Assembly: GCF_008727875.1 (NCBI RefSeq)
Contig: NZ_VTWS01000010.1
Location: 124,001 to 188,000 of the forward strand
DNA length: 64,000 bases
Direction: 5' to 3'
Source of the DNA: Larkinella humicola
GTDB lineage: Bacteria; Bacteroidota; Bacteroidia; Cytophagales; Spirosomataceae
Shown: positions 3,459-41,241 of the stretch, one piece after another
Position numbering within the stretch: position 1 is the first letter of the stretch
How the letters are laid out: every line of letters begins with the position of its first letter
The notes under the pieces: generated by a model
The model's input: the letters and a program-made list of their open reading frames with translations, nothing else
What the model was told of the DNA's origin: nothing
Database searches by the model: none
Program-made: the position numbers and the translations under genes

Positions 3459-3548
3459 GTTTTCGGTTTACGGTGGCTGACGCATGCTTGCTGACGCGTC
3501 TTGTTTGGTGCGTCAGCAAGCATGCGTCAGCCACCGTAAACCGAAAAC
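3459..3548. repeat. Perfect 39-bp hairpin, GGCTGACGC family copy 1
   Basis: Left arm 3459-3497 and right arm 3510-3548 are perfect reverse complements over 39 bp with a 12-nt loop (3498-3509). The arm contains the core CGGTGGCTGACGC followed by a second partial copy, CTGACGC. It lies between susD (stop at 3452) and the codirectional oxidoreductase starting at 3572, and the right arm continues into GAAAACCGTAAACTG-type words. Related to copies at 21251-21330 and 41162-41241. Confidence 0.9.
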
Positions 3549-3571
3549 TGAAAACCGTAAACTGTATAATT

Positions 3572-4954
3572 ATGGAAAAAATAAAAAGAAGATCGGCTTT
3601 AACCTCGCTCGGCGCACTGTCATTCGGGATGGCCGTACCGACCTTATCGAAAGGCGAACGGCTGAGCGAGCCTTACAAACTGGTTCAGCAGACGCTGAAA
3701 ACCGACATCCTGGTGATCGGGGGCGGCACGGCGGGCGTGGTGGCGGCCATTCAGGCGGCCCGGGCCGGACGCAAAACCATCCTGGTCGAAAACGGCAGTC
3801 AGTTGGGCGGCACAACGACCACCGGCGGGGTGAATTATCCGGGAATCTTTTTTGCCTGGGGCAAACAGGTCATCGGCGGCATCGGCTGGGAAATGGTGCA
3901 GGAAGCCGTCGCCCTGAACGACGATACCTTGCCGGATTTCTCGATTCCCCACGGCAAAAACCACCCCCGCCATCAGGTGCGGCTAAACGGGCAGTTATAT
4001 GCGATGTTGATCGAGGAAAAAGCCGTTGCCGCGGGTGTACAAATCCGGTTTTATGAAACCCCCACCAGCGCGACGTTTCAGAAAGGAAACTGGACCGTTC
4101 AAACCGTGGGGAAGGGAACCAGCACGCAAATCATTTGCAACCAGTTGATCGATTGCACCGGGAATGCCTACGCGGCTTCGCTGGCCGGTTTTCCGTTGCT
4201 ACGGGAATCGGTCACGCAGCCCGGAACGCTGATGTTCCGGCTGGAAGGCTATGATTTTAAATCGCTGGATTTAAAGCTGATCAAGGGCCGGTATGAAGAA
4301 GCGATCCAGAAGGGCGAACTCGTCAAAACCGACTTTCGGAACAACATTGTGGGCCTGTTGAAAAGTGCCGGGGACAACATCCAGCACGTGATGGGAGCCG
4401 ATTCCACGACTTCCGAAACCCATACCGTGGCGAATTTAAAAGGGCGATCGTCGCTGTTAACGACGCTGCGGTTTCTGCGAACGCTGCCCGGCTGTGAAAA
4501 AATCCGGCTGGCAGATGTGCAGAACGAAACTGCCGTGCGGGAAACCTACCGCATCGACGGCCATTACAAAATTACGCACGAAGATTACGTCACCGGGAAA
4601 GTATTCGATGATGCGGTTTCGTATTCGTATTATCCCATCGACGTCCACGACGAAAACGGCGTGGTTCCCGATCATTTAAAAGAAGGCGTGGTGCCGACGG
4701 TGCCGCTGCGGGCGCTGGTGCCGAAAAACAGCCGGAATTTTCTGGTGGCCGGGCGGATGGTGAGCAGCGACCGGCTGGCGAATTCGGCGCTACGGGTGCA
4801 GGCCTCCTGCATGGGCATGGGCCAGGCCGCTGGTGCCGCTGCGGTTTTGGCCAATTTGCAGAACAAAACGCCCCTGGAGGTGTCGATGAAAGACCTCCGG
4901 AAACTGCTTGAAGAACACGGCGGAATCGTGCCGGTTTCGGCTCAAAAAGGGTAG
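3572..4954 (+). CDS. FAD-dependent oxidoreductase (FAD_oxidored family), exported
   Basis: 460 aa flavoprotein. I start it at 3572 (MEKIKRRSALTSLG); the frame is open further upstream, but an earlier start would translate the hairpin at 3459-3548. The N-terminus has a Tat-like KRRS followed by a hydrophobic stretch, suggesting export. The dinucleotide-binding motif VIGGGTAGVVAAI sits near residue 50, followed by an acidic strand end (TILVE). The C-terminal FAD segment is FLVAGRMVSSDRLAN...GMGQAAGAAA. This is the PF12831-type family found beside sugar-utilisation genes; the substrate is unknown. A paralogue is at 24006. Confidence 0.85.
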   Translation: MEKIKRRSALTSLGALSFGMAVPTLSKGERLSEPYKLVQQTLKTDILVIGGGTAGVVAAIQAARAGRKTILVENGSQLGGTTTTGGVNYPGIFFAWGKQVIGGIGWEMVQEAVALNDDTLPDFSIPHGKNHPRHQVRLNGQLYAMLIEEKAVAAGVQIRFYETPTSATFQKGNWTVQTVGKGTSTQIICNQLIDCTGNAYAASLAGFPLLRESVTQPGTLMFRLEGYDFKSLDLKLIKGRYEEAIQKGELVKTDFRNNIVGLLKSAGDNIQHVMGADSTTSETHTVANLKGRSSLLTTLRFLRTLPGCEKIRLADVQNETAVRETYRIDGHYKITHEDYVTGKVFDDAVSYSYYPIDVHDENGVVPDHLKEGVVPTVPLRALVPKNSRNFLVAGRMVSSDRLANSALRVQASCMGMGQAAGAAAVLANLQNKTPLEVSMKDLRKLLEEHGGIVPVSAQKG

Positions 4955-5017
4955 TTTTAACGCGAACTATGGGATGATGCCCTTGCCTACCAGTTGTTTA
5001 AGTGCCAGCGGCACGTA

Positions 5018-5140
5018 ATGTTACTAGCAAACCGGTATTGTGAGCACTCCAGGCGTGCCGGAGGTACGCAACTAAGCCTATATCGCGTACCTCCGGTACG
5101 CCTGAATCTCTTAAAATAAATACCGATTTGCTAGTAACAT
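5018..5140. repeat. Two-tier imperfect hairpin upstream of the FMN/HEAT gene
   Basis: Outer arms 5018-5039 and 5119-5140 (ATGTTACTAGCAAA type) pair at 21 of 22 positions. Inner arms 5050-5069 and 5084-5103 (CAGGCGTGCCGGAGGTACGC type) pair at 19 of 20. It lies between codirectional genes and ends 47 nt before the start at 5188. An open frame extends back into the right arm but is not likely coding. Confidence 0.75.
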
Positions 5141-5187
5141 CGGACCCCTCCGGGGTCAATAATCTCACAGTTTACGTTAATTTTAGT

Positions 5188-6342
5188 ATGCGAGATTGGT
5201 TCAGCATTGGTTTACTCAACGCGGTTATTCTAACAATACTCCTGCTTTCGGCTTACCGGAAGCAGGACAAAATTCGCTATTTCCAGTCGCAAACGATTCA
5301 GCTAAAACCGGATACAATTCAGGCGTTTGTGAGTCAGTTTAAAGACGATGCGGGCAACGATACCCTGTTTCAGATTCGCTCAAAAGAAGGGTATCCGGTT
5401 TCGTATTTCCGGAAAATCAAAACGAGTGTCTGCTTCGATAACAAATGCCGGTTGCTGGACATTGTGCTCTACTGGAACGTCACCGGGCGGTATCTGGGCT
5501 ATGAATTGCCGGAAGGGGAATTTCTGAGCAAGACAGAACACGAACCGTTCAAACCCGCCGAATACGCCCGGTTGAACGACCTGCTGGCCGATCCGTTTTC
5601 GCCACTGGCCAACTTTTCGTACGAGGAACTGGTGCCTAAAGCCGATCTGGCGACTTCGGGACTGGATGCGGTTTCGTCGGCAACCTCGAAAAATGTGCTG
5701 GATTACGTGGTCGAAGGAGCCGTGTATACGACCTACAAAATGTGGCATTTTGTGTATGGTGCCGCGCAAAAGGAAGTGATTAAATTGACGGAAAAACGGC
5801 TGTCGCCCGGTTTTCTATTGAAGGTGCTGGAAAGCTCGGATTCCGGCGATAAAATCTGGGCACTGAACCACCTTCGCGGGCAGGTCGAGTTGACGCCCGC
5901 GCTCCGAACGACCGTCCTGAGTTTCATTGATAACAACCGGTTTAATCTCGCCGAACGCGCCATCAACGCCTTGAGTCCCGCCGAACTGAAATCGGATTCG
6001 TTGCAGCAATTGCTGTTTGAGAAATTTCCCAAGATAAATTACGCCCTTAAAAATCTGATCGTTACGAAACTCAAAGAAGCTCCGCATTTAAATGAAACCG
6101 TGAAAACCGCATTGGCGACCAATTTGAAATCGACCAACGGCGAGTTGCTGAGTAATATTCTGGATCTCTTTAAACAGCAAAAAGTAGCGGACCCGAAAAC
6201 CGGTCGGATCATTGCCAGCCTGCTGCAAAGTGACAATAATTTCCTGGCTCAAAAAGCGTTTATCTACCTGAAAAGTGCGAATATTGACGATCAACGCGTG
6301 ACGGAGCAACTGAATGCCTACAAAACGAAGCACCATTTATAG
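5188..6342 (+). CDS. Membrane-anchored FMN-binding-like protein with HEAT-like repeats, predicted ApbE substrate
   Basis: 384 aa. I start at 5188 (MRDWFSIG); the frame is open further back but would read through the hairpin. Residues 6-22 form one membrane anchor. Residues about 60-175 resemble an extracytosolic FMN-binding domain, ending in D160-A-V-S-S-A-T166, which fits the ApbE flavinylation consensus Dxx(S/T)(G/S)AT with Thr166 as acceptor. Residues about 205-384 are repeated amphipathic helices of HEAT type (EVIKLTEKRLSPGFLLKVLES and following). The next gene, 12 nt downstream, is ApbE, the enzyme that attaches FMN to this motif. I infer a flavinylated periplasmic electron carrier or sensor. 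The FMN_bind/HEAT combination is one I do not recognise as a named protein. Confidence 0.75.
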   Translation: MRDWFSIGLLNAVILTILLLSAYRKQDKIRYFQSQTIQLKPDTIQAFVSQFKDDAGNDTLFQIRSKEGYPVSYFRKIKTSVCFDNKCRLLDIVLYWNVTGRYLGYELPEGEFLSKTEHEPFKPAEYARLNDLLADPFSPLANFSYEELVPKADLATSGLDAVSSATSKNVLDYVVEGAVYTTYKMWHFVYGAAQKEVIKLTEKRLSPGFLLKVLESSDSGDKIWALNHLRGQVELTPALRTTVLSFIDNNRFNLAERAINALSPAELKSDSLQQLLFEKFPKINYALKNLIVTKLKEAPHLNETVKTALATNLKSTNGELLSNILDLFKQQKVADPKTGRIIASLLQSDNNFLAQKAFIYLKSANIDDQRVTEQLNAYKTKHHL

Positions 6343-6354
6343 TCGAAACAACGC

Positions 6355-7347
6355 ATGAAAGGACTGGTATGGCTGATCGTGCTGGTTCCGTTTTGGGGGA
6401 AATCGACTGATTTTCAGCGGTCTGCGGAGGTGCCGATGGTTAGTCTGGAAGGCGAAGCGCAGGGCACAACCTACCACATCAAATACCGCGATGAACGCCA
6501 GCGCAATTTTAAAAAACCGGTCGATTCGCTGCTCACCGAAATCGATCTTTGTCTCTCCACCTACCGCCCCGATTCGGAAATTTCGCAGTTCAACCACTCC
6601 GAGTCGCACCGGTTTCAGCGGCCTTATTTTTACCCGGTTCTCAAAAAATCCGACGACGTGTATCGGGCTACCCACGGTGCCTTCGATCCGACCGTAAAAC
6701 CGCTGGTGGAAGCTTATGAACAAGGCAAAAAGTCCCGCGAACCCTGGCTGCCCAATACCGATTCGCTGCTGGAATACGTTGGTTTTCAGTATATTTCGTA
6801 TGATACGGTTTCGGTCAAAAAACGCAAAAAGAACGTCCGGCTGGATTTCAACGCGCTGGCGCAGGGCTACACCGTTGATGTGCTGGCGGGTTTTCTGGAA
6901 TCAAACGGTATCGATCACTACCTGGTGGAAGTGGGCGGGGAGGTTCGCTGCCGGGGTGAACGCAGCGCCGGGCAATGGTGGAACGTCGGGATCGAAAGCC
7001 CGGTGAGGCCCGGCGGGCTGCAGTCGTCGGTTCAAATAGCCAACCGGGCGATGGCGACGTCTGGCAATTACCGCAATTTTTACCGCCAGAACGGTGAAAC
7101 CTTCGGTCACATCATCAACCCCAAAACCGGCTTTTCCAAACCCGACGCGCTGCTGAGTGCCACGGTTTTTGCCAACGACGCCATGACTGCCGACGCCTTT
7201 GCCACGGCTTTTCTGGTGCTGGGACTGGCCGAAACCCGGCGGTTTCTGGCCCAACACCGCGAACTGGATGCCTATCTCATTTACAAAGACGATGCGGGAA
7301 ATCTGAAAACCGTTGCCACGGACGGGATCAGGGAGTTTATCAAGTAA
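6355..7347 (+). CDS. apbE: FAD:protein FMN transferase (ApbE)
   Basis: 330 aa. Transfers FMN from FAD onto Thr/Ser of target proteins in the periplasm. An N-terminal hydrophobic signal (MKGLVWLIVLVPFWG) agrees with export. Family blocks in order: GTTYHIKY; STYRPDSEISQFN; HGAFDPTVKPLV; VRLDFNALAQGYTVD; YLVEVGGEVRCRG; MATSGNYRNF; HIINPKTG; and the C-terminal NDAMTADAFATAFLVLG with the metal-binding Asp/Thr region. It is complete in length. It follows the FMN-binding/HEAT gene by 12 nt and is probably cotranscribed, so that protein is its most likely substrate. Confidence 0.95.
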   Translation: MKGLVWLIVLVPFWGKSTDFQRSAEVPMVSLEGEAQGTTYHIKYRDERQRNFKKPVDSLLTEIDLCLSTYRPDSEISQFNHSESHRFQRPYFYPVLKKSDDVYRATHGAFDPTVKPLVEAYEQGKKSREPWLPNTDSLLEYVGFQYISYDTVSVKKRKKNVRLDFNALAQGYTVDVLAGFLESNGIDHYLVEVGGEVRCRGERSAGQWWNVGIESPVRPGGLQSSVQIANRAMATSGNYRNFYRQNGETFGHIINPKTGFSKPDALLSATVFANDAMTADAFATAFLVLGLAETRRFLAQHRELDAYLIYKDDAGNLKTVATDGIREFIK

Positions 7348-7412
7348 TAGTTGGGTTTTATTGCTACATTTACACGTTTTATTCCAACCCTCACAAACCT
7401 TACGGGGCGTTT

Positions 7413-10400
7413 ATGAACTCAACTCGTTATTCTTCTTTTTTCCGGTTGTCACGGCGGGCTTTGGCCTGGTCTACCGCCGGGCTGATCGTCGGGGGCGTCC
7501 TGGTCGGTGCCTGGCAAAACGACAACCTCAATCAGGCTTCCAGCGAATACCTCGACCGCTTATTTGCCGGATTATCAGACGACGATAAACACGATCCGAA
7601 ATATGCCGTAGGAAGTCTGAACGTGGCCCCGGGTCTGGAAGCAAAGCTTTTTGCTGCCGAACCGATGCTGACGAATCCGACCAACATCGACGTCGATGCC
7701 CGGGGCCGCGTCTGGGTTTGCGAAGCGTATAATTACCGCGCCAACATCAGCGGAAACCCCACCCGCCCCGAAGGCGACCGGATTCTGATTCTGGAAGATA
7801 CCAACGGCGATGGACAGGCCGATGTCACCAAAACGTTTTATCAAGGGCCGGAACTGGTTTCTCCACTGGGCGTTTGGGTGCAGGGCAACAAGGTGATTGT
7901 GTCGGATAGCCCGAATGTGTTTGTGTTTACGGACGAAAACGGCGACGATAAAGCCGATAAAAAAGAACTGCTGTTTACCGGACTGAGTGGTGCCGACCAC
8001 GACCACGGAATGCACTCCTTCGTTTTCGGACCCGATGGCAAGTGGTATTTCAATTTTGGGAACGAAGGCAAGCAAATCCGCGACAAAGACGGCAAAGCCA
8101 TTTTTGACCGCACGACCGGCAAGGAAATCGATACCAAAAATTACCGCCAGGGCATGGTTTTCCGGTGCAACCCGGATGGCAGTGAGATGGAAGTGCTGGG
8201 GCAGAACTTCCGGAACAACTTCGAAGTCGCGCTGGATTCCTACGGAACCATGTGGCAGTCGGACAATGACGACGACGGCAACAAGGGCGTTCGGATCAAT
8301 TACGTGATGGAGTATGGCAATTACGGCTATACTGACGAAATGACCGGCGCGGGCTGGCGCGTGAACCGCACCAACCTGGAAGCCACCATTCCGCTGCAAC
8401 ACTGGCACCTGAACGACCCCGGCGTGGTGCCGAATTTGCTGCAAACCGGCGCGGGTTCGCCCACCGGTATTATTCTGTATGAAGGAAAATTGCTGCCGGA
8501 AGTGTTTCAGGGTCAGATGATTCACTGCGACGCGGGGCCAAATATCGTTCGGTCGTATCCGGTCACGAAAGACGGCGCGGGCTACAAAGCCACCATCGTG
8601 CCGCTGCTGGAAGGCGTGCGTGACCAGTGGTTCCGGCCTTCGGATGTGTGCGTCGCACCCGACGGTTCGCTGCTCATTTCCGACTGGTATGATCCCGGTG
8701 TGGGTGGTCACCAGGCGGGGGATCAAAACCGGGGGCGGGTCTACCGCGTGGCCCCACCGAATACGCCGTACAAAATACCGAAAGTCGATCTGGCTACGAC
8801 GGCCGGCGCCGTTGAAGCGCTGCAAAGCCCGAACATGGCGATTCGTTATGCTGCCTGGAACAAACTCCACGATCTGGGTGTGAAAGCCGAAAAAGACCTG
8901 GCGAAACTCTACAAAACGTCACCCGATCCGCGTATGAAAGCCCGCGCCCTCTGGTTGCTGAGCAAGCTGGACGGTAAAGGCAAAAAATACATTGAAACCG
9001 CGCTGAAAGAAAGCGATCCGAATCTGCGCATCACCGGTTTGCGGGCGGCTCGTGAATTGAAAACCGACATTATTCCCTATGTGAAGCAGTTGGTGAATGA
9101 CATGGATCCGCAGGTTCGTCGGGAATGTGCCATTGCCCTGCGCCGGAACACATCGCCCGAAGCACCGGATTTGTGGGCGCAACTGGCGGCCAAGCATGAT
9201 GGCAAAGACCGCTGGTATCTGGAAGCGCTCGGCATTGGGGCTGATGGCCAGTGGGATACGTATTATGCCGCCTGGCTGAAACGGTCGGGCGCGAATCCGG
9301 TGGCTACCGATGCCGGAAAAGACATCGTCTGGCGGGCCCGCACCAAAGAATCCGTTCCGTTGCTGGCGAGTCTGGCGGGTGATTCGAAAACCGATCTGAC
9401 GAGCCGCTTGCGGTATTTCCGGGCTTTCGATTTCAATCCGGGAGCTACCGAAAAATCGACGGCTTTGCTGAGCATTCTGAAAAGCAACCCGAACGATGTA
9501 CAGATTACCAAACTGGCGTTGCGTCACCTCGACCAGAACTTCGTCAAAAACTCGCCGGAAGCGATGGCGTCGTTGACCAAATTGCTGGACGAAACCTACG
9601 GCAAGCCCGAATACATGGAAATGGTGAGCCGGTATGAACCCGTAGCCGAAAATCCGCGCTTGCTGGCTCTGAGTCAGAAACAGTTCAATGACATTGTGGG
9701 CCGTGATGCCACCCGCCAATTGCTGAAGCAGGGTGGTGGGAAGCAGGTTTGGGAAATTTTGAATGGCAGCAACCCGGAAGCCGCCATCAACATGGTGTCG
9801 GCTCTGCGCTGGGTGGGGACTAAGGAGTCGCTTGAGATGCTGAAAACCATTGCGTTGGACGAGAAACGCCCGACGCTGCTGCGGAAAGAGGCCACCCGCG
9901 CCATCGGCGGTAGCAACGACGGAGAAGAAATGATTCTGTCACTCCTGCGCTCCGGCCAGATTAAACCGGAATACAAAACGGCGGCCGTCCAGGGTGTTGC
10001 TAACACCTGGCGGAAGAAAGTCCGGACGGAAGCTGCCAGTTACCTCGACGGTGCCAAAGGCGCAGAAGGCAAGAAACTGCCCGCCATTCCGGATCTGCTG
10101 GCCATGACCGGCGACGCGGGTCGGGGGATGACGGTTTTCAAAACGAATTGCTCCATTTGCCACCAGATCAACAGCGAAGGCATGGATTTTGGCCCCAAAC
10201 TGTCCGAAATCGGGAGCAAGCTGCCGAAAGAAGGGCAATACCTTTCTATTTTGTATCCCGATGCGGGGGTTAGCTTTGGCTACGAGGGGTTTGAGGTCAA
10301 ATTCAAAGACGGCAGCACGGTTTCCGGGATCATTTCCAGCAAAACCGAAACCGACCTGCAAATGAAATTTCCGGGTGGCGTGGTGAGCGATTACAAAATG

Positions 10401-10523
10401 AGTGACGTCGTTTCCATGAAGCAAATGGATGCTTCGATGATGCCATCCGGTTTGCAGGAAAATATGTCTACGCAGGAACTGGTCGATTTAGTGGATTACT
10501 TATCGAGTTTAAAGAAAAAATAG
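7413..10523 (+). CDS. PVC-type membrane dehydrogenase with HEAT repeats and C-terminal cytochrome c
   Basis: 1036 aa. Residues about 15-34 are a signal anchor. Residues about 60-430 form a beta-propeller of the glucose/sorbosone-dehydrogenase kind seen in PVC-type dehydrogenases (VAPGLEAKLFAAEPMLTNPTNIDVDARGRVWV-like start, NFRNNFEVALD, VCVAPDGSLLISDWYDPGVGGH). Residues about 440-880 are HEAT repeats. The C-terminal heme domain has C913-S-I-C916-H917. The family is thought to oxidise carbohydrates or alcohols in the periplasm and pass electrons to c-type carriers; substrate unknown. It follows apbE by 65 nt, and the next gene starts 14 nt after its stop. Confidence 0.9.
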   Translation: MNSTRYSSFFRLSRRALAWSTAGLIVGGVLVGAWQNDNLNQASSEYLDRLFAGLSDDDKHDPKYAVGSLNVAPGLEAKLFAAEPMLTNPTNIDVDARGRVWVCEAYNYRANISGNPTRPEGDRILILEDTNGDGQADVTKTFYQGPELVSPLGVWVQGNKVIVSDSPNVFVFTDENGDDKADKKELLFTGLSGADHDHGMHSFVFGPDGKWYFNFGNEGKQIRDKDGKAIFDRTTGKEIDTKNYRQGMVFRCNPDGSEMEVLGQNFRNNFEVALDSYGTMWQSDNDDDGNKGVRINYVMEYGNYGYTDEMTGAGWRVNRTNLEATIPLQHWHLNDPGVVPNLLQTGAGSPTGIILYEGKLLPEVFQGQMIHCDAGPNIVRSYPVTKDGAGYKATIVPLLEGVRDQWFRPSDVCVAPDGSLLISDWYDPGVGGHQAGDQNRGRVYRVAPPNTPYKIPKVDLATTAGAVEALQSPNMAIRYAAWNKLHDLGVKAEKDLAKLYKTSPDPRMKARALWLLSKLDGKGKKYIETALKESDPNLRITGLRAARELKTDIIPYVKQLVNDMDPQVRRECAIALRRNTSPEAPDLWAQLAAKHDGKDRWYLEALGIGADGQWDTYYAAWLKRSGANPVATDAGKDIVWRARTKESVPLLASLAGDSKTDLTSRLRYFRAFDFNPGATEKSTALLSILKSNPNDVQITKLALRHLDQNFVKNSPEAMASLTKLLDETYGKPEYMEMVSRYEPVAENPRLLALSQKQFNDIVGRDATRQLLKQGGGKQVWEILNGSNPEAAINMVSALRWVGTKESLEMLKTIALDEKRPTLLRKEATRAIGGSNDGEEMILSLLRSGQIKPEYKTAAVQGVANTWRKKVRTEAASYLDGAKGAEGKKLPAIPDLLAMTGDAGRGMTVFKTNCSICHQINSEGMDFGPKLSEIGSKLPKEGQYLSILYPDAGVSFGYEGFEVKFKDGSTVSGIISSKTETDLQMKFPGGVVSDYKMSDVVSMKQMDASMMPSGLQENMSTQELVDLVDYLSSLKKK

Positions 10524-10537
10524 AACCTTCCTTTATC

Positions 10538-11476: not shown

Positions 11477-11481
11477 TATTC

Positions 11482-11516
11482 ATGGCGTGCCAGTCGTCCA
11501 CCGACTGGCACGCCAT
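11482..11516. terminator. Bidirectional terminator hairpin
   Basis: Perfect 15-bp stem, 11482-11496 against 11502-11516 (ATGGCGTGCCAGTCG), with a 5-nt loop, between the convergent isomerase and sulfatase genes. There is no clear U-tract. Confidence 0.7.
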
Positions 11517-11528
11517 TCGATGGTTGAA

Positions 11529-12950: not shown

Positions 12951-13024
12951 GCTCGGGCCAAGGTTCGTTGTGGCTGACTACTGCTACCAAAACCCAAAAC
13001 TACGGTCAGATCCCTGATAAACAA

Positions 13025-13052: not shown

Positions 13053-13088
13053 ACACGCATCCGACTGTGGACACGAAATGGAAATCAA

Positions 13089-19457: not shown

Positions 19458-19460
19458 CGT

Positions 19461-20290: not shown

Positions 20291-20323
20291 TCGTTCGTAA
20301 TTTGATTTTTCGTATCAACGCCC

Positions 20324-20420
20324 TAACGCCCCGTTCCCCTAAAGGCCGGGCGGCCGGAGCCGGACTTTTTGCATCTGGATGCTGCTGTGTCCAAGTCCCC
20401 TTTAGGGGAACGGGGCGTTA
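20324..20420. repeat. Perfect 22-bp hairpin in the leader of the SDR gene
   Basis: Left arm 20324-20345 (TAACGCCCCGTTCCCCTAAAGG begins it) and right arm 20399-20420 are perfect reverse complements. An inner pair, GGACTT 20362-20367 with AAGTCC 20394-20399, adds a second tier. It lies downstream of the putative promoter and 28 nt before the SDR start, so it would be in the 5' leader. Confidence 0.85.
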
Positions 20421-20448
20421 CAGGATTTTAACCGTTTATTTTTTCAGG

Positions 20449-21240
20449 ATGGATCAACTCTGGCTGGCCAACAAGCGGATTGTGGTCATTGGTGGAACAA
20501 CGGGTTTGGGGCTGTCGGCGGCCCACGCCTTTGTCGGACAGGGCGCACGGGTTGTCGTGGTGGGCCGGAATGAGGAAAGCTGCAAAGCGGCCGAAGCCCA
20601 GTTGGGCGGTTACGGTTTTGCGCTGAACGGCGACGCCACCGATCCGGCCACGGCCCTTTCGGCCATCGCGCTTTGTCAGGGTGAGTTTGGCGGTTTCGAC
20701 GGGCTTTACCACGTTGCGGGCGGCAGTGGCCGACGGTTTGGCGACGGTCCGCTGCATCAGCTAACGCTCGAAGGCTGGAACAAAACTTTCGAACTGAATC
20801 TGACCTCGCTGATGCTGTCGAACCAGGCGGCTATCCGCGCATTTCAGGAACAGAATACCGGCGGAACGATCCTGAACATGGGGTCGGTGCTGGGCTATTC
20901 GCCGTCACCGAAATACTTTTCGACCCACGCCTATGCCGCCACCAAAGCTGCCATCATCGGTTTTACGAAATCGATTGCCGCCTATTACGCGCCCCACGAC
21001 ATTCGGGTAAACGTGCTGGCGCCCGGTTTGGTCGAAACGCCCATGGCGCAGCGAGCGGCCACCGACGAAACCATTTTGAAGTTTGTCGCCACCAAACAAC
21101 CCCTGGACTGCGGTCGCATCGGCCAGCCCACGGATTTAGACGGGGCGGCTATTTATTTCATGTCGGATTATTCCCGCTATACAACGGGTCAGGTGCTGTC
21201 CGTCGACGGCGGCTGGAGCGTCAGCGAGGGTCAATACTGA
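20449..21240 (+). CDS. Short-chain dehydrogenase/reductase (SDR)
   Basis: 263 aa. I start at 20449 (MDQLWLANK); an upstream extension would translate the hairpin. The cofactor motif is VIGGTTGLGLSAA, a GGTTGLG variant of TGxxxGxG. The structural NAG-like motif is HVAGGSG. The catalytic Ser is in LNMGSVLGY and the YxxxK motif is YAATKAAI. C-terminal GQVLSVDGGW is typical. It is a classical NAD(P)-dependent sugar or alcohol dehydrogenase, first gene of the cluster divergent from the GntR regulator. Confidence 0.92.
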   Translation: MDQLWLANKRIVVIGGTTGLGLSAAHAFVGQGARVVVVGRNEESCKAAEAQLGGYGFALNGDATDPATALSAIALCQGEFGGFDGLYHVAGGSGRRFGDGPLHQLTLEGWNKTFELNLTSLMLSNQAAIRAFQEQNTGGTILNMGSVLGYSPSPKYFSTHAYAATKAAIIGFTKSIAAYYAPHDIRVNVLAPGLVETPMAQRAATDETILKFVATKQPLDCGRIGQPTDLDGAAIYFMSDYSRYTTGQVLSVDGGWSVSEGQY

Positions 21241-21250
21241 GGACGGTTTA

Positions 21251-21330
21251 CGGTTTACAGTATTCGGTTTACGGTGGCTGACGCGAGAATATGGATGCGC
21301 CAGCCCCCGTAAACCGGATACCGTAAACCG
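21251..21330. repeat. Hairpin, GGCTGACGC family copy 2
   Basis: Left arm 21251-21284 and right arm 21297-21330 pair at 30 of 34 positions around a 12-nt loop (21285-21296). The left arm differs from that of copy 3 (41162) at only 3 of 34 positions and ends in the same CGGTGGCTGACGC core. It sits between the SDR and ROK genes, both +. Confidence 0.85.
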
Positions 21331-21377
21331 AATACCGTAAACTGAATACCATAAACCGAATCACCGAATACCGTAAA
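21307..21377 (+). repeat. Tandem 14-nt repeat CCGTAAACCGAATA
   Basis: Units at 21307, 21321, 21335 and 21349 (CCGTAAACCGGATA, CCGTAAACCGAATA, CCGTAAACTGAATA, then a 15-nt CCATAAACC variant), followed by truncated units up to 21377. It extends the right arm of hairpin copy 2 and reaches to 3 nt before the ROK start codon, leaving no room for a normal ribosome-binding site. Confidence 0.85.
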
Positions 21378-21380: not shown

Positions 21381-22259
21381 ATGAACGCAATCGGCATCGA
21401 CATTGGCGGTACCCGCATCAAAGGTGTTTTGATCGACGTCGAAACCGGTGAAGTGTTACACCGCGTGGTCTGCCCGACCAATGATGGGCAGGACGGACAA
21501 TGGAAACAGGCCGTTGCTGATACCTACCACCAACTGAAAACCGCTACTCCCGAACCGGTAACGGGCGTGGGCTTGTCGGCACCCGGTCTGCCCACCCCGG
21601 CCAACGACGCCATTGCCTGTATGCCGGGCCGACTGCCGGGACTGGAAGGCTTCGTCTGGTCAGCGTTTCTGGGCGTTCCCGTGCGGGTGTTGAACGACGC
21701 CCACGCGGCCCTGATGGCGGAAGCCCGGTATGGGGCCGCCAAAGGCATTCGGAATGCCCTGATGCTCACGTTGGGAACGGGCGTTGGTGGCGGGTTGCTG
21801 ATCGACGGAAATCTGTACCAAGGCTATTACCAGATGGCGGGTCATTTGGGTCATGTGTCGGTCAATGCCGATAGTAACCAGTTGGATATCACCCAGATAC
21901 CGGCTAGTCTGGAAGATGCGATCGGCAACGCGACGGTTTTCCGCCGGTCGTACGGCACGTACCAGACCACGCAGGAACTGGTTGATGCGTACCGGCAACA
22001 GGAACCGCTGGCCACGCTGGTCTGGCTGACGTCGGTTCGGCAACTGGCTGTCACCATTGCCGGTTTTGCGAATGCTTTTTCGCCGGAAGTGGTCGTGTTG
22101 GGCGGGGGAATCACGCAGGCCGGGGAGGCTTTGTTCAGTCCGCTGGAGGCCTTTCTGGCGGTGTTTGAATGGCGACCGGCCGGTAAGAAAACCGCCATCC
22201 GTAAAGCGCATTTTGAAGATTGGGCCGGGGCCATCGGGGCTGCCGGTTTTGCAATATAA
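21381..22259 (+). CDS. ROK-family sugar kinase-like protein
   Basis: 292 aa. ATP/sugar-binding blocks are present: IGIDIGGTRIKGVLID at the N-terminus, VRVLNDAHAALMAE with the catalytic Asp, LTLGTGVGGGLLIDG, and GHLGHVSV with the His that normally ligates zinc. The following region (about 168-180) lacks the CxCGxxGC zinc motif of most ROK kinases and reads DSNQLDITQIPASLED instead. The start follows the tandem repeat by 3 nt. The SIS gene begins 28 nt downstream. It could phosphorylate an amino sugar or other hexose, but the missing Cys cluster makes specificity uncertain. Confidence 0.88.
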   Translation: MNAIGIDIGGTRIKGVLIDVETGEVLHRVVCPTNDGQDGQWKQAVADTYHQLKTATPEPVTGVGLSAPGLPTPANDAIACMPGRLPGLEGFVWSAFLGVPVRVLNDAHAALMAEARYGAAKGIRNALMLTLGTGVGGGLLIDGNLYQGYYQMAGHLGHVSVNADSNQLDITQIPASLEDAIGNATVFRRSYGTYQTTQELVDAYRQQEPLATLVWLTSVRQLAVTIAGFANAFSPEVVVLGGGITQAGEALFSPLEAFLAVFEWRPAGKKTAIRKAHFEDWAGAIGAAGFAI

Positions 22260-30611: not shown

Positions 30612-30617
30612 AACCGC

Positions 30618-32000: not shown

Positions 32001-32020
32001 CGGAACGCTGGTACGCTGTC

Positions 32021-33055: not shown

Positions 33056-33346
33056 GAAGGCTTAGGAATTTTGGGGGGAAGATACGGAATTTTACGGTTT
33101 ATGGTGCTGTCTTTTGTTTTTCAGAACCGACCCAGTGAACCGGGGTCACATCCGTCCTTTTTTTCATCCGCTGCAAACCCCCGTTTGAATAATAGAAAGT
33201 CCAGTTCAGCCATTTCTGCTTAATCCAGGGCTTCTAGATTCTGTATTTTGTCTGATAAATAACCGGATCAATCCTTTTTTGACCCTTTGTCCGGACGTTC
33301 AGTATAACAACAAAACAAGTCCACTATTCACTTATCATCTACCACC
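33056..33346. other. Divergent intergenic region before the GH44 gene
   Basis: 291 nt between the DUF3500 gene (minus) and the GH44 gene (+), holding both promoters. AT-rich stretches lie near 33230-33330. I do not see a convincing operator, long hairpin or missed gene. Confidence 0.4.
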
Positions 33347-36300: not shown

Positions 36301-38266
36301 GGCCGACAACGGTTTTGCCGCGATGGTCTGGGACTGGAACGAAAACACCAACGACGAAGCCATCAAAGACTTGAGCACCAAGGGTTACCTAACGTTTTAC
36401 GTGAAAGTCAGCAATCCCGGAGAAAACTTCGATTTTCAGGTGTTTCTGAAAGATCGTTCTGCCGCAAGCACCTCACCCGTACCAGTGCGCGGAGGGGGGT
36501 ATGTGACTACTTTCTCCGGTGATTACCAGCGGGTTCGGGTTCCGATGAGCGCGCTGCTGGCGGGTGATAAAATTGATACGAAACAGGTGACGCGGATCGG
36601 TTTTCTGTCGACCGGACTGGACAAGGCCTACGATTTCTGGGTCGATGACATCGAAGCGGGGGGCAGCAATGTCGCTGATGTCAAACTGACGACGCAAAAT
36701 GCGGCCTGCGGTTCTACCGGAGCCATCCGGGTGGTTTCCATCAACGGCAGCGAAGCGGTTTCGAACTATTCATTTTACCTGAACAACGTGGTCAATCCGG
36801 CCGGGGAGCATGTGGCGGTTTTCAGCAATCTGGCCCCCGGAAAATACGATTTGCGGATCGAGGGGAACGACGGTTTTCTGTATTACGAAAATGTGCCCGT
36901 TGGTGGGGGCACCAATCCGCTGTCGGCTGCCATTGTGCAGAACCAGACGATGCTGGATTTAACCGTTTTGGGCGGCAGCGGTTCCTACAGCTATCGTTGG
37001 TCGAATGGCGGCACGACGGAAGATTTGACCAACATAACGCCCGGGACGTATCGCGTCACGGTGACTGATCAGGTGAGCGGTTGTACCATCGAAGCATCCA
37101 TAATCGCAACAGGCGGAACCGCTAGCGCGGACTTCGTGGTGACCGACGCGACGTGTAAACCCAATGGCCGGATCGAGGTACAAAATCTTACAGGCTCGGG
37201 AGGTAACACGAAGTATGCCATCAATGGAAAACCGAATCCGGCGGGGGCCGACCAGCCGGTTTTCAGCGATCTGGCTGCGGGCGATTACGAGATTGTCATT
37301 ACGGGCGACGGCGATTTTCGGTTTGCCAAAACCGTTTCCGTGCAGGACAAGGGTGAAAAACCGGTCGTTCAGGCGGAGGTCAGTATCGAAAATGAAAAAG
37401 CGTACATCAATCTGAATGTTACCGGTGGCAGCGGAATTTACATCTACAAATGGTCGGAAGGGTCGGAATCCCAAAATCTGTGGGAAGTTCTCGACGGAAC
37501 GTACCAGGTGAAGGTGACCGATGCGGCTACGGGCTGTAGCGCCACAGCGTCCTACACCATCGTCATTCCCGGAATCGAACTGACGTCTGAGAACCCCAGT
37601 TGTGCGCCCAATGGCAAAATCCGGGTAACCGCCGTGAAGGGTTCGGGTGGTAACAATAGGTACTTCATCAACGGCGAGCCGAATCCGGCCGGGATCAACA
37701 ATCCCGAATTTGGGGGGCTGGTGCCGGGGACCTTTCGCATCAAATTGGAAGGCGACGGCGGTTTTCAGATTGAAAAAGAGGTGACGCTGGAAGGGTCCGG
37801 TTCGGCACCAGACGTCACGGCCAACGTCAGCTACCTGAACGGCAAGGGTTATATCAACCTGAACGTTACGGGCGGAAGTGGCATCTATACGTACGACTGG
37901 TCCAATGGCGCCACCACCCTGAACATCTGGGAAGTTCCGGCGGGGACGTACTCCGTGGTGGTCACCGACCTCGTCAGCCAATGCAAAACCACCTATTCGG
38001 CGACGTTGAGTGACGCCAGTGAAAGTATTATGATTTACCCCAACCCGGCTGTGGGGCAGGAACAGGTGCTGGTTCGCTATAATTTCGTAGATACCCAGGT
38101 TCGGAAAGTAATGCTGAAAGATCACGTTGGCGTGGTGGTGTATACCGCCGATGTGGCCGAACATGCCACGGAAATAACCGTGCCGGTTCGGAATCTGCGG
38201 AGTGGTACGTATCTGGTGATTCTGGAAGGGAAATCGCTGATAACGAAGCACTTGATTGTTCAGTAG
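33347..38266 (+). CDS. Secreted GH44 endo-glucanase/xyloglucanase with repeat modules and T9SS signal
   Basis: 1639 aa with a GTG start and a long signal peptide ending near YAYSQ (about residue 41). The GH44 catalytic domain spans about 45-555: hallmark RLGGNRITNYNWENN, putative acid/base E218 in YALDNEPGLW, DVLDVHWYPE, and putative nucleophile E393 in AITEYSYMG. Two copies of a linker/CBM-like unit follow (about 560-845 and 850-1108), each with a WDGD start and a WIDDV/WVDDI end. Three SprB-like repeats then occur (about 1110-1565), with C-x6-13-G starts, GGSGxYxYxWS and TxGTYxVxVTD blocks. The last about 75 residues (MIYPNPAVG to KHLIVQ) are a type A T9SS C-terminal sorting domain. It should be exported by T9SS and act on beta-1,4-glucan or xyloglucan. 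Confidence 0.92.
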   Translation: MPQPVNNTRFRSFRLPKWRFFRRSSLLSLMLILLSRYAYSQIQVSFNINPQNSRKPISPLIYGTNDQYPYATAKRLGGNRITNYNWENNASNAGFDWFHESDNYVPGQQNVPENQYDVPGAALSTFHQRSLNQNAYSLVTLPMAKYVTKDKNGAVTPEQAAPSSRWAAVNYRKPSPFTLLPDVNDGEVYVDEELNYLQHHFGRSNTARGVRGYALDNEPGLWASSHSRMWGTTPVSVRYLMDNSFALAQRIKEMDPTAEVFGPASFGISEFENLQFAPDWDQEKGNYPIFLDLYLGKMREKEQQGGKRLLDVLDVHWYPERRNDGLRPTDNRTDYANNAARMAMTRSLWDPTYSEGTFVSDDPVKRQLFLPFLPKMHQHIGQYYPGTKLAITEYSYMGLTHASGGIAQADALGIFGKQGVYLATYWGGVVDFIKSGFDLYRNYDGQGGHFGDTSVESSTVDLVNTSVFASINGSDDSKLHVVALSKNQDGPITATFTIGGSRQYKSATVWAFDNSSPVLKQLKSVRTINNNTFQYVLPALTACHFVLSEENIAIYPDITETTINPSAGYSDGTATFELTAKVADGDNDLAGVTADLSPLGGGAAVAFTASATAAGLYRLSVQVPAGTAAGSKSIKITAKDAANHTAEAAVSYRVIKRTAETVIWDGDEIKRGTGGSYYDPSDTQARNAKIERRETGGQHQPGSLFMHFEHANNRYNTMTWRLSDNDNPADARDIRDFGALEFYLKSNAPENSDIEVSLRDATAQLHTSNTVWLKQGGYLGSLNSSGYTRVKIPLSAFTTDSPIDLGQIWQLNFNCNTAQKPFDVWIDDVRVLPYSNPVLQPVIRETGVTPTAGYADGKTTVTIFAQVDDPDNNLRTVTVDLAPLGLANKQAMTLENGRYAATVTVPTGVVKGAKQLNIAAVDAEGNSGDASVQFTVNEPASSVVLWDGDVVNTGKPTTLNAVTTCVVDEANGNKAPKSMKMHFDMADNGFAAMVWDWNENTNDEAIKDLSTKGYLTFYVKVSNPGENFDFQVFLKDRSAASTSPVPVRGGGYVTTFSGDYQRVRVPMSALLAGDKIDTKQVTRIGFLSTGLDKAYDFWVDDIEAGGSNVADVKLTTQNAACGSTGAIRVVSINGSEAVSNYSFYLNNVVNPAGEHVAVFSNLAPGKYDLRIEGNDGFLYYENVPVGGGTNPLSAAIVQNQTMLDLTVLGGSGSYSYRWSNGGTTEDLTNITPGTYRVTVTDQVSGCTIEASIIATGGTASADFVVTDATCKPNGRIEVQNLTGSGGNTKYAINGKPNPAGADQPVFSDLAAGDYEIVITGDGDFRFAKTVSVQDKGEKPVVQAEVSIENEKAYINLNVTGGSGIYIYKWSEGSESQNLWEVLDGTYQVKVTDAATGCSATASYTIVIPGIELTSENPSCAPNGKIRVTAVKGSGGNNRYFINGEPNPAGINNPEFGGLVPGTFRIKLEGDGGFQIEKEVTLEGSGSAPDVTANVSYLNGKGYINLNVTGGSGIYTYDWSNGATTLNIWEVPAGTYSVVVTDLVSQCKTTYSATLSDASESIMIYPNPAVGQEQVLVRYNFVDTQVRKVMLKDHVGVVVYTADVAEHATEITVPVRNLRSGTYLVILEGKSLITKHLIVQ

Positions 38267-38287
38267 TGCAGGTGTTCTACCCGGTTT

Positions 38288-38317
38288 TACACGGCAGTCC
38301 GCGCGGGCTGCCGTGTA
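38288..38317 (+). terminator. Terminator hairpin after the GH44 gene
   Basis: TACACGGCAG (38288-38297) pairs with CTGCCGTGTA (38308-38317) around a GC-rich loop, 22 nt after the GH44 stop and followed by a T-rich run (TTTGTTTGG). Confidence 0.7.
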
Positions 38318-38407
38318 TTTGTTTGGAAGAAAGGGAGGAGTGGAAGAAAAATTGCTTTGTCATTGGAGAGAGTCGCCGGAACCCGATTATCGTCGTTCTG
38401 TTCACAC

Positions 38408-39610
38408 ATGAAATCCGCCATCGATCGCTTGTTGCAGACTTCGGGTCTGCCGCTGACCGTCCGCCAGTTCTGGTGGTACAGTTTTTTCTATTGGAGTTTT
38501 TTTTCGCTGATCTGGTATGGTCAGGCCATTATGGTCTGGCTGCTCACGCCCAACGCCCGGCTGTATTTCACCGATACGCTCTACTGGCTCATCGAGTTAT
38601 TGTACTGGTGGGGTGCAACGCCCCTGGTCATTTTCTGCGCCCAGCGGTTTTCGCTCCTCAAAACCCAGCGCGCCAGCCGGTTTGTCACCCAGGTGCTGAC
38701 GCACCTGCTGATTGCTGCGGTGTTGTATGGGGTGGAACTGGTGGTGGAACACCTGCTGCTGGGAGCCGCCATTGCCCACGAGCAGGGGAAGGCGATCACT
38801 GTCCGGCGGGTGATGACGGTTTTTTTTCTGAGTTTTGGCAACGCCTTTGCCCAGTACATGCTGCTGGTGGTTTGTTATAATGTGTTGACGCACGTCTACC
38901 AACTGCAATCGCTGAAACAGCAACATTTGCAGGCCGAACTGGTCAACGAACAGCTCAAGAGCCAGTTGGCCAATGCGCAGTTGCAGGCGTTGAAAATGCA
39001 GTTAAATCCTCATTTTCTGTTCAATACGCTTCATACGGTGGTCAGTTTAATGTTGCGAAACCAGACCCGCCGGGCCGCCCTGATGGTGACCACGCTGAGC
39101 GACCTGCTCCGGAGTGTGCTGGTTCGTCAGCAGGCCAACTTCATTTCGGTGCGCGACGAGATGACCCTGACCCGGCAGTACCTGTCGATCCAGCAAATTC
39201 GCTTCGAAGACCGTTTGATGGTCGACTACGAGATTGCGCCCGAAGCGGAAGAATGCCTGCTGCCGCAGTTGATTCTGCAACCCATCGTCGAAAACGCCAT
39301 CACCCACGGCATTGCCGACCTCACCGAAGGCGCGCTAATTCGCATCACGGCGCAACGGCTTGGCGAAACCGTCGTGATTCAGGTGTTCGACAATGGGTTG
39401 GGTCAGGAACAACTGCACGATACGTCCGGGATGGGTTTGGGCCTGTCCAACACCCTTTCGCGGCTGGAAAAAGCTTACGGCGAACAGGCGACGATGCAGT
39501 TCGATCAGCCACCGGGGGGCACCACCACCGTCAGCCTGCGGATTCCTTGCCAGTGTTCCTTGTTAACTTCAACGGTATCCCATGAATCCGTATCACACGC
39601 TCATCATTGA
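38408..39610 (+). CDS. LytS/YehU-type sensor histidine kinase
   Basis: 400 aa. I start at 38408 (MKSAIDRLLQ). Four hydrophobic segments (about 20-40, 55-75, 95-120 and 135-160) form the membrane sensor, followed by a coiled-coil linker rich in Gln/Leu. The His-kinase domain has the phospho-acceptor His in MQLNPHFLFNTLHTVVSLM. The ATPase part has LPQLILQPIVENAITHGI, DNGLG and GMGLGLSNTLSRLEKAYG. Its 3' end overlaps the response regulator by 29 nt, so the two are translationally coupled. It senses an unknown membrane or periplasmic signal. Confidence 0.93.
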   Translation: MKSAIDRLLQTSGLPLTVRQFWWYSFFYWSFFSLIWYGQAIMVWLLTPNARLYFTDTLYWLIELLYWWGATPLVIFCAQRFSLLKTQRASRFVTQVLTHLLIAAVLYGVELVVEHLLLGAAIAHEQGKAITVRRVMTVFFLSFGNAFAQYMLLVVCYNVLTHVYQLQSLKQQHLQAELVNEQLKSQLANAQLQALKMQLNPHFLFNTLHTVVSLMLRNQTRRAALMVTTLSDLLRSVLVRQQANFISVRDEMTLTRQYLSIQQIRFEDRLMVDYEIAPEAEECLLPQLILQPIVENAITHGIADLTEGALIRITAQRLGETVVIQVFDNGLGQEQLHDTSGMGLGLSNTLSRLEKAYGEQATMQFDQPPGGTTTVSLRIPCQCSLLTSTVSHESVSHAHH

Positions 39611-40349
39611 CGACGAACTGGCGGCCCGTGAGGTGATCCGGACGTTGCTGGCCGACACGCCCCTGCTCCGGGTGGTCGACGAAGCGGCCAATGGTCTGGA
39701 AGCGGTGCAGAAAATTCTGCTTCACCGCCCGCACCTGATTTTTCTCGACATTCAGATGCCCCGGCTCGACGGCTTCAGCGTGCTGCGGAAAGTCTGGCCC
39801 GATCACCAGCCAACGGTGGTGTTCACGACGGCCTACGATCAGTATGCCCTCCAGGCTTTCGAAGTCAACGCCATCGATTATTTGCTCAAGCCTTTTGACG
39901 AAATTCGATTCGGGCAGGCGCTGGGCCGGGCCATCGAGCGGCTCAACAACCAGAACCAGCCCAAAATTGAGGCCCTGCTGGCCCAATTGCTCAGTGCGCA
40001 TACGCCCGCACCCCCGCGCGAGTACCTGTCGCGGGTGCTGGTGAAGGAGCAGGGCCGGATGTATTTCGTGAATCTGAACGATGTGCAGTATCTGGATGCG
40101 GATGGTAATTACATCACCCTGCACACCGCCACCGGCAAACACATCGTGTACGACAGCCTGACGAAGCTCGAAACCCGGCTCGATCCAAACCAGTTTGTGC
40201 GGATGCACCGCTCACACATTGTCAATCTGGCCTACGTTCAGGAAGTGGAAACCCATTTCAACGGCGATTACATCGTTCACCTCAAGCTGGGGCAGACGCT
40301 GAAATGGACCCGCAATTACCGGGATAAAATTCAGGCGTTTCTGGGGTAA
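39582..40349 (+). CDS. LytTR-family response regulator
   Basis: 255 aa. The receiver domain (1-120) has the acidic pair D10/D11, phospho-acceptor D56 (IFLDIQMP), the switch Thr in VVFTTAYDQYA, and Lys in DYLLKPFDE. The DNA-binding LytTR domain (about 150-253) has YLDADGNYITLHT, KLETRLDPNQFVRMHRSHIVNL and the C-terminal LKWTRNYRDKI. Partner of the overlapping LytS-type kinase. Target genes cannot be told from the window; the adjacent GH44 gene is a reasonable first candidate. Confidence 0.95.
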   Translation: MNPYHTLIIDDELAAREVIRTLLADTPLLRVVDEAANGLEAVQKILLHRPHLIFLDIQMPRLDGFSVLRKVWPDHQPTVVFTTAYDQYALQAFEVNAIDYLLKPFDEIRFGQALGRAIERLNNQNQPKIEALLAQLLSAHTPAPPREYLSRVLVKEQGRMYFVNLNDVQYLDADGNYITLHTATGKHIVYDSLTKLETRLDPNQFVRMHRSHIVNLAYVQEVETHFNGDYIVHLKLGQTLKWTRNYRDKIQAFLG

Positions 40350-40371
40350 ATGCCCTTTTGGTGTAATAAAA

Positions 40372-40422
40372 AACGGGTCGTTGCCGGGGCAGTTTCAAAA
40401 ACCGTCCCGGCAACGACCCGTT
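40372..40422. terminator. Bidirectional intrinsic terminator
   Basis: Perfect 17-bp stem, 40372-40388 (AACGGGTCGTTGCCGGG) with 40406-40422. It is preceded by TAATAAAAA, a U-tract for minus-strand transcripts. It separates the convergent LytTR and DUF1080 genes. Confidence 0.85.
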
Positions 40423-40440
40423 AACCAAATCTTCTAAATT

Positions 40441-41139
40441 CTACAATTCCCGAATCCGGATGTTTTTATACCAGACCACCTCTTTCGGGCTGTGGTTTTG
40501 CAGCGCGATTTTGCCTTTGGTATGGGCTTTGGCGTAATTCCAGTCTTTGAACTTGCTGCCGGCCACCATCTTCTGCCATTCGTCCCCGCCGTAGTGGTAT
40601 TCCACCACTTTCTTGCCGTTCAGGTAATGCTCGACGTGGTTGTTGTTCACCACAATCCGGCCTTTGTTCCACTGACCGGCGGGTTTGTTGATGGTCAAGT
40701 CACTGGGTGCGATCATGTCGTAGTTGGCACCGGTCAACTGGCTGCCTTTCAGCTTGGCACCGTCGCCCAACTGGTAGCCGGTATCGTCGATCACCTGGTA
40801 TTCGGGGCCGGACCAGTACGTGGCCTTGTTCGCCGGATCTTCGATCACTTTGTAAACCACTCCGCTGTTGCTTTTGGGTGGCAGTTTGAACTCAAATTCC
40901 AGCTCGAAGTTCTCGTATTCCTTGTCCGTCACGAGGTCACCGCCGGTGCCGTCGGGCGTCAAGGTTCCGTCTTCGATGTTCCAGCCAATGGCCTTGTCTT
41001 TCAGGTAACTGTGCCAGCCTTTCGTGGATTTTCCGTCGAACAGCGACACCCATTTGCCGGGTTTTGAGCCAGCATTCGAAAGGCTCATGAGGGTAATGAC
41101 GCCCGCCAGCAGGGCCAGGGCAAAGGTTGCTTTTTTCAT
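40441..41139 (-). CDS. DUF1080 (3-keto-disaccharide hydrolase family) secreted protein
   Basis: 232 aa with a Sec signal (MKKATFALALLAGVITLMSLSNAG). I start at 41139; the open frame upstream lies within the hairpin leader. The family fold (concanavalin-like jelly roll) begins WVSLFDGKSTKGWHSY and continues with LVTDKEYENFELEFEFKLPP, NSGVVYKV, GPEYQVIDD, WNKGRIVVNNNHVEHYLNG and ends IALQNHSPKEVVWYKNIRIREL. Members act in periplasmic cleavage of 3-keto-glycosides. It is downstream of a Tat-exported Gfo/Idh/MocA enzyme on the same strand, separated by hairpin copy 3. Confidence 0.92.
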   Translation of the reverse strand: MKKATFALALLAGVITLMSLSNAGSKPGKWVSLFDGKSTKGWHSYLKDKAIGWNIEDGTLTPDGTGGDLVTDKEYENFELEFEFKLPPKSNSGVVYKVIEDPANKATYWSGPEYQVIDDTGYQLGDGAKLKGSQLTGANYDMIAPSDLTINKPAGQWNKGRIVVNNNHVEHYLNGKKVVEYHYGGDEWQKMVAGSKFKDWNYAKAHTKGKIALQNHSPKEVVWYKNIRIREL

Positions 41140-41161
41140 GGTTTTGTAGGGTTGTGGTTTG

Positions 41162-41241
41162 CGGTTTTCAGTATACGGTTTTCGGTGGCTGACGCGTTCC
41201 AAATCATGCGTCAGCCACCGAAAACCGTATACTGAAAACCG
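41162..41241. repeat. Perfect 34-bp hairpin, GGCTGACGC family copy 3
   Basis: Left arm 41162-41195 and right arm 41208-41241 are perfect reverse complements with a 12-nt loop (41196-41207). The arm shares the CGGTGGCTGACGC end with copies 1 and 2 and differs from the copy 2 left arm at 3 of 34 positions. It lies between two codirectional minus-strand genes, 22 nt upstream of the DUF1080 start. Confidence 0.9.

Follow-up and report, generated by a model that had tools for sequence, protein, structure and literature searches.

REP-like palindromes at gene ends in Larkinella humicola, probably kept perfect at the DNA level by replication template switching

Palindromic and repeat-built elements have been described from several kinds of genomes. 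Repetitive extragenic palindromes (REPs) are short, dispersed intergenic palindromes that lie shortly behind the 3' ends of genes, between convergent or unidirectional ones, and are probably transcribed; they measure 20-40 bp, with CGTC types having stems of 8-9 bp and a one-sided tetranucleotide tag and GTAG types being linked to REP-associated tyrosine transposases (RAYTs) (PMC3733652). Template switching is known to homogenise the arms of inverted repeats and to invert their spacers (PMC8604942; PMC8794818), and in yeast a study of ten genes whose arms measured 10-16 bp reported both outcomes (PMC8604942). TAACTGA heptamer repeats occur as direct repeats, mostly just before starts, in Beggiatoaceae, some Cyanobacteria and Bacteroidetes (PMC4679880), and the palindromic microsatellite and double-hairpin elements of mitochondria are repeat-built with mononucleotide arms, optional between species and argued to be mobile (PMC7218506). 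A 2026 survey found inverted repeats to be enriched behind bacterial stop codons generally, mostly with spacers of 4-5 nt (PMC13155455). Here, we describe a family of hairpins present in three copies in a 64,000-nt stretch of L. humicola DNA (the window, part of a genome of 7.86 Mb in 20 contigs, G000), at 3459-3548 (copy 1), 21243-21338 (copy 2) and 41158-41245 (copy 3). Its defining mark is the tip GCTGACGC-loop-GCGTCAGC, usually spelled GGTGGCTGACGC in Larkinella. Judging from sequence comparison, these are probably REP-like gene-end palindromes kept perfect at the DNA level by template switching during replication, and not RNAs that control initiation.

In the broad sense the family resembles REPs, with many dispersed intergenic palindromic copies of a common sequence lying behind genes. 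Unlike the GTAG and CGTC types, it has long arms of tandem 7-mers and site-specific loops, and its RAYT link is weak at best. No one-sided unpaired GTAG or CGTC tag was seen; both sides of the tip usually run on as paired arms, and CGTC occurs within the paired tip. The family is REP-like by place and dispersal and is not a member of the described GTAG/CGTC families as far as tested. It shares arm homogenisation and whole-spacer inversion between close relatives with the inverted repeats known for template switching, whereas the yeast cases differ from these natural intergenic bacterial palindromes with loops of ~12-27 nt, inverted within sister-species divergence. Intrinsic (bidirectional) terminators are likewise stable gene-end hairpins enriched between convergent genes; in contrast, the present hairpins lack a U-tract and have long stems, and close relatives may carry an unrelated hairpin in their place or none at all. 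TAACTGA repeats are also intergenic tandem 7-mers found in some Bacteroidetes, but the heptads here are degenerate, arranged in inverted arms and placed just behind stops. The mitochondrial elements are similarly palindromes made of repeats and optional between species, but have no conserved tip, and the repeats of the 2026 survey differ from our long arms and loops of mostly 12 nt or longer. Among the titles and abstracts returned by literature searches, in a collection without most subscription papers, none describes such hairpins in Larkinella, Spirosoma or Fibrella. Palindromic repeats as such are already known; what gives this family more than ordinary interest is how extensively arms are copied, loops inverted and one family replaced by another.

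Of the gene gaps of G000 with an orthologue, 310 on contig C11 and 78 on contig C1 were compared with G002, 68 with G006 and 50 with G005. A palindrome was present on both sides in 59 site-by-species pairs, in which the loop was the same in 10, very short and the same in one, inverted in seven and, by an automatic rule, neither in 41. The shared-loop set comprises 17 orthologous palindrome pairs from 15 sites and all palindrome families, only two pairs carrying the tip. Among their 489 paired positions, 435 were the same, 26 had single changes, 23 had double complementary changes and five had other double changes, where independent change at that per-base rate would give ~3 double changes by our arithmetic. 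Loops were inverted in seven of the 17 pairs, five with at most 6% edits and two exactly (C11:649912 and C1:177260); at C11:625437 the two species have identical arms, and the 17-nt loop differs from an exact inversion by one change. Within the tip family, the 16-nt loop of L001, a locus of the own genome, is exactly inverted in L047 of Larkinella sp. C7 (flanks 94% identical). Additionally, the loop of copy 2 (21285-21296, + strand, GAGAATATGGAT) reads ATCCGTATTCTC in G002, its reverse complement with one mismatch; the chance of such a near-inversion for a random 12-mer is about 2e-6. The block GCCGGGCCGTCGCTACG stands in one arm in L021 and in both arms in the orthologue L049 (flank 92.5% identical). 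Within single hairpins of the own genome, the two arms show 92% identity over the 21 nt outside the tip (17 copies, nine of them perfect); between different hairpins the figure is 75%, with 1.1% perfect.

Block copying and inversion are, as read from these alignments, footprints of arm-to-arm copying and not of single-base compensation. Template switching at the DNA level is preferred as the source of concerted change because of the exact loop inversions, the block copying and the unrelated hairpins found at one junction, and as a single cause it would account for arms that stay perfect, double changes, copied blocks and flipped loops alike. In the proposed mechanism, the nascent strand would fold back or switch strand at the palindrome during replication, so that one arm or the loop is copied from the other; this copying step would keep the arms perfect and flip the loop, slippage would yield tandem units, and deletion of a palindrome with a new gain would give turnover. 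Two further hairpins of the window also differ between species. An AATGTAA-unit hairpin at 47655-47766, between convergent genes, shows an inverted loop in G002 and an uninverted one in G006, whose two arms each contain a GC-rich block that neither G000 nor G002 possesses. A hairpin of 9-nt ACGGATTGA units at 53295-53388 has its loop exactly inverted in G002, from which its arms differ at several paired positions, and G006 has a GC block in one arm only. GC-rich blocks between tip and outer arm were observed on one or both arms, namely GCCGGGCCGTCGCTACG in L021 and L049 and ACGGGGCCGCCCGAGCG in L033 (5736-5890).

The turnover of these hairpins looks unusual. At the copy 3 junction, a tip-family hairpin is also found in G005 and G008 and decayed forms in G004 and G001; an unrelated ATTCGTT-type hairpin occupies the junction in G002, G006 and G003, with flanks 96% identical for G002 and G006, and G007 has no hairpin in a stop-start gap of 10 nt. 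The copy 1 junction is free of hairpins in G003, with 13 nt between the genes, and holds other palindromes between apparent remnants of tip-family arms in G006 and G008. At the copy 2 junction of G006 the genes are only 13 nt apart. More generally, 17 of the 59 pairs with palindromes on both sides had no shared 8-mer, with flanks 80-98% identical and 16 of them at least 91%; no 8-mer was shared in 85% of random hairpin pairs from different sites. A convergent gap at G000:C1:204355-204474 is occupied by a GCTGACGC-tip hairpin in two genomes, G000 and G005, and G002 and G006 have one of AATGTAA type there (flanks 94-98% identical); the loop of the latter, TGGCTGATGCGTCC or TGGCTGGCGCGTCC, is tip-like.

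Position relative to genes was assessed for 94 distinct tip copies, with orthologous copies in several species counted separately; 14 had no gene call on one side, one lay within a gene call and 79 intergenic copies were classified. Of these, 47 were codirectional, 29 convergent and three divergent, and on the own contigs C11 and C1 alone the numbers were six, five and one. Codirectional copies keep close to the upstream stop (median 11 nt; 15 nt or less in 32/47) and stand more loosely before the next start (median 79 nt; 15 nt or less in 4/47). Both stops lie within 20 nt in 20 of the 29 convergent copies, where the hairpin often spans the gap from stop to stop. Long palindromes of all families across 1.2 Mb of C11 were located in 62 cases in 143 convergent gaps, in 79 in 530 codirectional gaps and in 17 in 161 divergent gaps, with four genic. 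The window copies all stand between codirectional genes, as the preliminary description had it; its emphasis on the next start was misplaced, the upstream stop, on which it was silent, being the tighter neighbour. Copy 1 starts 6 nt past the stop (3452) of a SusD-like gene (2016-3452). Copy 2 follows by 2 nt the stop (21240) of a short-chain dehydrogenase gene (20302-21240) and precedes a ROK gene at 21381. Copy 3 begins 2 nt behind the stop (41248) of a minus-strand GFO/IDH/MocA family gene (41248-42651), and the next gene, a 3-keto-disaccharide hydrolase on the minus strand, starts at 41139. From arm to next start the three copies measure 23, 42 and 18 nt, the starts at 3572 (copy 1) and 41139 (copy 3) being our own reading of the sequence.

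All three inverted repeats were recovered with 12 nt between their arms. Copy 1 has arms of 39 bp (3459-3497 and 3510-3548), 100% paired around a loop at 3498-3509; copy 2 has 42-nt arms that are 86% paired; and copy 3 has 38-nt arms that are 97% paired, 34 bp of them perfect, around a loop at 41196-41207. The pairing first reported was correct: copy 1 has 39 perfect pairs, copy 2 pairs at 30 of 34 positions and copy 3 at all 34. The computed RNA folds reach -81.9, -56.9 and -65.5 kcal/mol for copies 1, 2 and 3 (z -17.4, -8.9 and -15.7). The outer core CGGTGGCTGACGC (in copy 1 at 3471-3483, + strand, with its partner at 3524-3536) is exact in every left arm; among the right arms it is exact in copies 1 and 3 and has two mismatches in copy 2. 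With at most two mismatches it matches nine times in the window against 2.35 expected, and none of 100 shuffles reaches nine. Copy 1 has a second GCTGACGC inside its left arm (3490-3497), and the copy 3 tip at 41183-41220 (matched by the strict genome pattern at G000:C1:165184-165219) consists of CGGTGGCTGACGC, the 12-nt loop and GCGTCAGCCACCG.

Loops of the tip family range from 9 to 31 nt. The commonest length is 12 nt (25 of 98 distinct copies), followed by 15 nt (15/98); orthologous copies of one site are counted separately in this set, and its sole 5-nt loop comes from an unrelated metagenome-assembled genome (MAG). The fixed 12-nt loop proposed earlier is therefore not a property of the family, since only six of 22 strict copies (9-28 nt) have it, and loop length, whose randomness the preliminary description had named as speaking against its proposal, indeed proved variable. 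Nor are loop sequences unconserved as it had supposed, for once all are oriented alike, 30 of the 95 different loops both begin with NTT[CA] and end with GCNN, whereas shuffled loops do so 0.4 times on average and at most 3 times. A loop polarity fixed relative to the gene was rejected, with nine copies in the same and 15 in the opposite sense among 24 orientable ones. Arms, with mismatches allowed and the tip included, extend for a median of 33 and a maximum of 68. In the 17 own-genome copies (34 arms), 69% of bases recur 7 positions further along, while other distances (3 to 12) give 10-40%. The units are GGTTTAC, GGTATTC, AGTTTAC and similar in Larkinella; at Fibrella loci the common tip sits on purine units or AAGTCTA units. 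The view that arms evolve in concert has gained support from the cross-species double changes, the likeness of arms within a hairpin and the block copying.

That the family is dispersed was supported by the genome-wide search the preliminary description had called for. The own genome contains 22 copies of the strict pattern GGTGGCTGACGC-N0..30-GCGTCAGCCACC and 52 matches to the shorter tip pattern GCTGACGC-N4..34-GCGTCAGC, among which copy 1 is counted twice (C1:127476 and C1:127490); either pattern read backwards gives 0. Only copy 3 of the window hairpins matches the strict pattern, which misses copy 1 because of its doubled tip and copy 2 because of mismatches. A scan of public genomes returned 62 stretches, mostly of Larkinella (knui, rosea, punicea, terrae and sp. 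C7), others belonging to Spirosoma luteum, terrae and telluris, a Spirosoma MAG and two Fibrella species. Four of the 62 come from unrelated MAGs (L020, L031, L032 and L042); they were taken as chance and dropped from the position set of 94 but kept in the loop set, where they contribute two of the 98 copies, one with a 12-nt and one with a 5-nt loop. The tip is present in 36 of 150 sampled genomes of the family Spirosomataceae and in 7/36 genera, with up to 137 matches per genome, 36 being an upper count since single matches in genus g46 (for example, G071, G138 and G148) are alike and may be coding or chance; the backwards control over the 150 genomes gave nine matches in six genomes. Nine Larkinella genomes hold 0, 0, 1, 9, 22, 26, 33, 51 and 52 matches, and genus g9 holds 2, 16, 45, 91 and 137. 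We take g9 for Fibrella, since one loop is common to G016 and a named Fibrella locus.

Several points weigh against template switching. The 52-137 places with one tip need dispersal, and template switching at fixed sites gives none; the tip would have to be copied from site to site in some other way, and no dispersal agent was found among the candidates looked at, the loci of Y1_Tnp genes. The automatic rule fitted 41 of the 59 loops neither way, though it also misfiled copy 2. Shared-loop pairs were kept only if both sides were still hairpins, which favours compensated changes, and the flip and co-change statistics rest mostly on other palindrome families (15/17 pairs). Tip loops in the same orientation exist too (C11:280477, C11:293353 and L021/L049). 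Genes were called by a simple home-made codon-score script, by which single assignments of position may be wrong. Finally, in hairpins such as L001, with 28-50 bp of perfect arm, misassembly could have produced the flips; copy 2 is evidence to the contrary, as its perfect pairing next to the loop covers only 3 bp in G000.

With regard to function, the hairpins, when transcribed, would be very stable structures in the 3' region of the mRNA, where they may be harmless or mildly useful, for instance in setting the transcript 3' boundary, in mRNA stabilisation or in shielding convergent genes. Tolerance or mild use at the 3' ends of mRNAs receives most weight here, and a distinctly smaller share goes to real terminator function. 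The alternative that the hairpins are transcription terminators, bidirectional between convergent genes, with arms kept paired through compensatory selection on the RNA, is unlikely but is the strongest of the rivals. It would suit the place behind stops and between convergent genes as well as the very stable folds, and compensatory switches in terminators have been published (PMC5381666). It is also consistent with the tendency of one junction to be occupied in both G000 and G002 even by unrelated hairpins. On C11, codirectional junctions were occupied in both genomes in four cases, in one only in 12 and six, and in none in 163 (Fisher p 0.006), and convergent junctions in both in six, in one only in six and three, and in none in 22 (p 0.036); these tests leave gap length uncontrolled, which weakens them as support. 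However, the tip family has no U-tract, with a mean of 2.5 T in the 9 nt past the stem (n=22; two with at least six) versus a background of 2.57, and the search for terminator-like sites at window positions 3300-3700 gave 0, with 0.5 in shuffles. Another set of palindromes, family B, is T richer after the stem (mean 4.0 in 9 nt; 11/49 with at least six). Additionally, some sister junctions are free of hairpins, with gaps of 10-13 nt (G007 at copy 3, G003 at copy 1 and G006 at copy 2), and whole-loop inversion and block copying differ from point compensation. Because they lack a U-tract and are absent at the orthologous junction in some sister species, the hairpins are not required terminators.

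Movement of these palindromes as REPs by RAYT (Y1) transposases is a still more doubtful explanation. The intergenic position behind stops agrees with published REPs (PMC3733652), and copy numbers are very uneven between sisters (0 to 52 in Larkinella and 2 to 137 in g9). Y1_Tnp genes were counted in the own genome and in 20 genomes, and 35 loci were read with flanks of up to about 1.5 kb. The exact tip hairpin stood at none of the 35; a GCTGGCGC-variant tip hairpin with GGTTTAC-like arms lies slightly beyond the Y1_Tnp gene at one, L248 of G012 (2017-2079). Moreover, G098 lacks any Y1_Tnp match despite 45 tip matches, the tip is missing from G001 and G004 despite a Y1_Tnp match in each, and several Y1_Tnp loci bear other palindromes of CTACAAACATT or GCGTAGCGACC types. 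Palindromes of the form CTACAAACATT...GCTACGCGAC or GCGTAGCGACC adjoin Y1_Tnp genes at L242, L254, L255 and L081, similar ones occur at L241 and L243, and a similar palindrome is found within the copy 1 junction of G006. These are perhaps the true RAYT-linked REPs of the clade.

The preliminary description had favoured RNA elements acting at operon junctions in processing, attenuation or initiation control, and this now appears very unlikely. It was drawn from three window copies that are all codirectional and shortly before a start. Across the family, 29 of 79 copies are convergent with no start following, and the codirectional ones are near the stop and not the start, the distance to which is loose where that to the stop is tight. 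The mixed loop polarity and the absence of the hairpin at some sister junctions also speak against such a role. A covariance-model scan of the window against Rfam at the gathering score returned 0 matches. That the tip is a DNA uptake signal gathering in gene-end inverted repeats, as such signals do in Neisseria or Haemophilus, would fit a conserved 12-mer in inverted repeats behind genes, but is most improbable, as GGCTGACGC shows no excess in C11 coding DNA (10 found versus 14.4 expected), where single copies of a dispersed uptake signal would be over-represented too.

The tip family is one part of a wider palindrome landscape. The first 400 kb of C11 contain 58 long palindromes, against 0 in one first-order Markov control of equal length, and the 1.2 Mb of C11 contain 162. 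Periodicity was clear in 37 of 131 arms of at least 24 nt from all families (shuffles predict 0.6), and 30 of the 37 have period 7. Word-based sorting left 76 of 194 palindromes unassigned, and the counts of families besides the tip are rough. The window itself holds long palindromes with arms of ATTCGTT type (42819-42938), GATTGAGT type (1909-2003), CTCTGCTTAA type (61725-61835) and CCCCCTTCAGGGGG type (62899-62973). A bolder proposal, which we hold tentatively and consider rather improbable as a whole, is that the gene end demands or breeds a hairpin but no given sequence. Around a dozen unrelated palindrome families of tandem 7- to 10-mers would alternate at the same stop-codon sites, each palindrome rewriting itself from its other arm and flipping its tip, with the sequence neutral and the mutation process keeping the fold; the GCTGACGC tip would have been spread by some element or enzyme.

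A functional RNA fold is usually demonstrated by covariation of its paired bases, but here DNA copying alone can yield such covariation, along with the inversion of whole loops. These palindromes are a natural warning and a test case of covariation arising without selection on RNA. The rates of quasipalindrome correction and loop inversion have so far been measured mostly in reporter genes, and the many natural sites in these genomes would let both be estimated from strain collections. Should the repeated occupation of junctions survive control for gap length, gene ends in these bacteria would be selected for structure and not for sequence.

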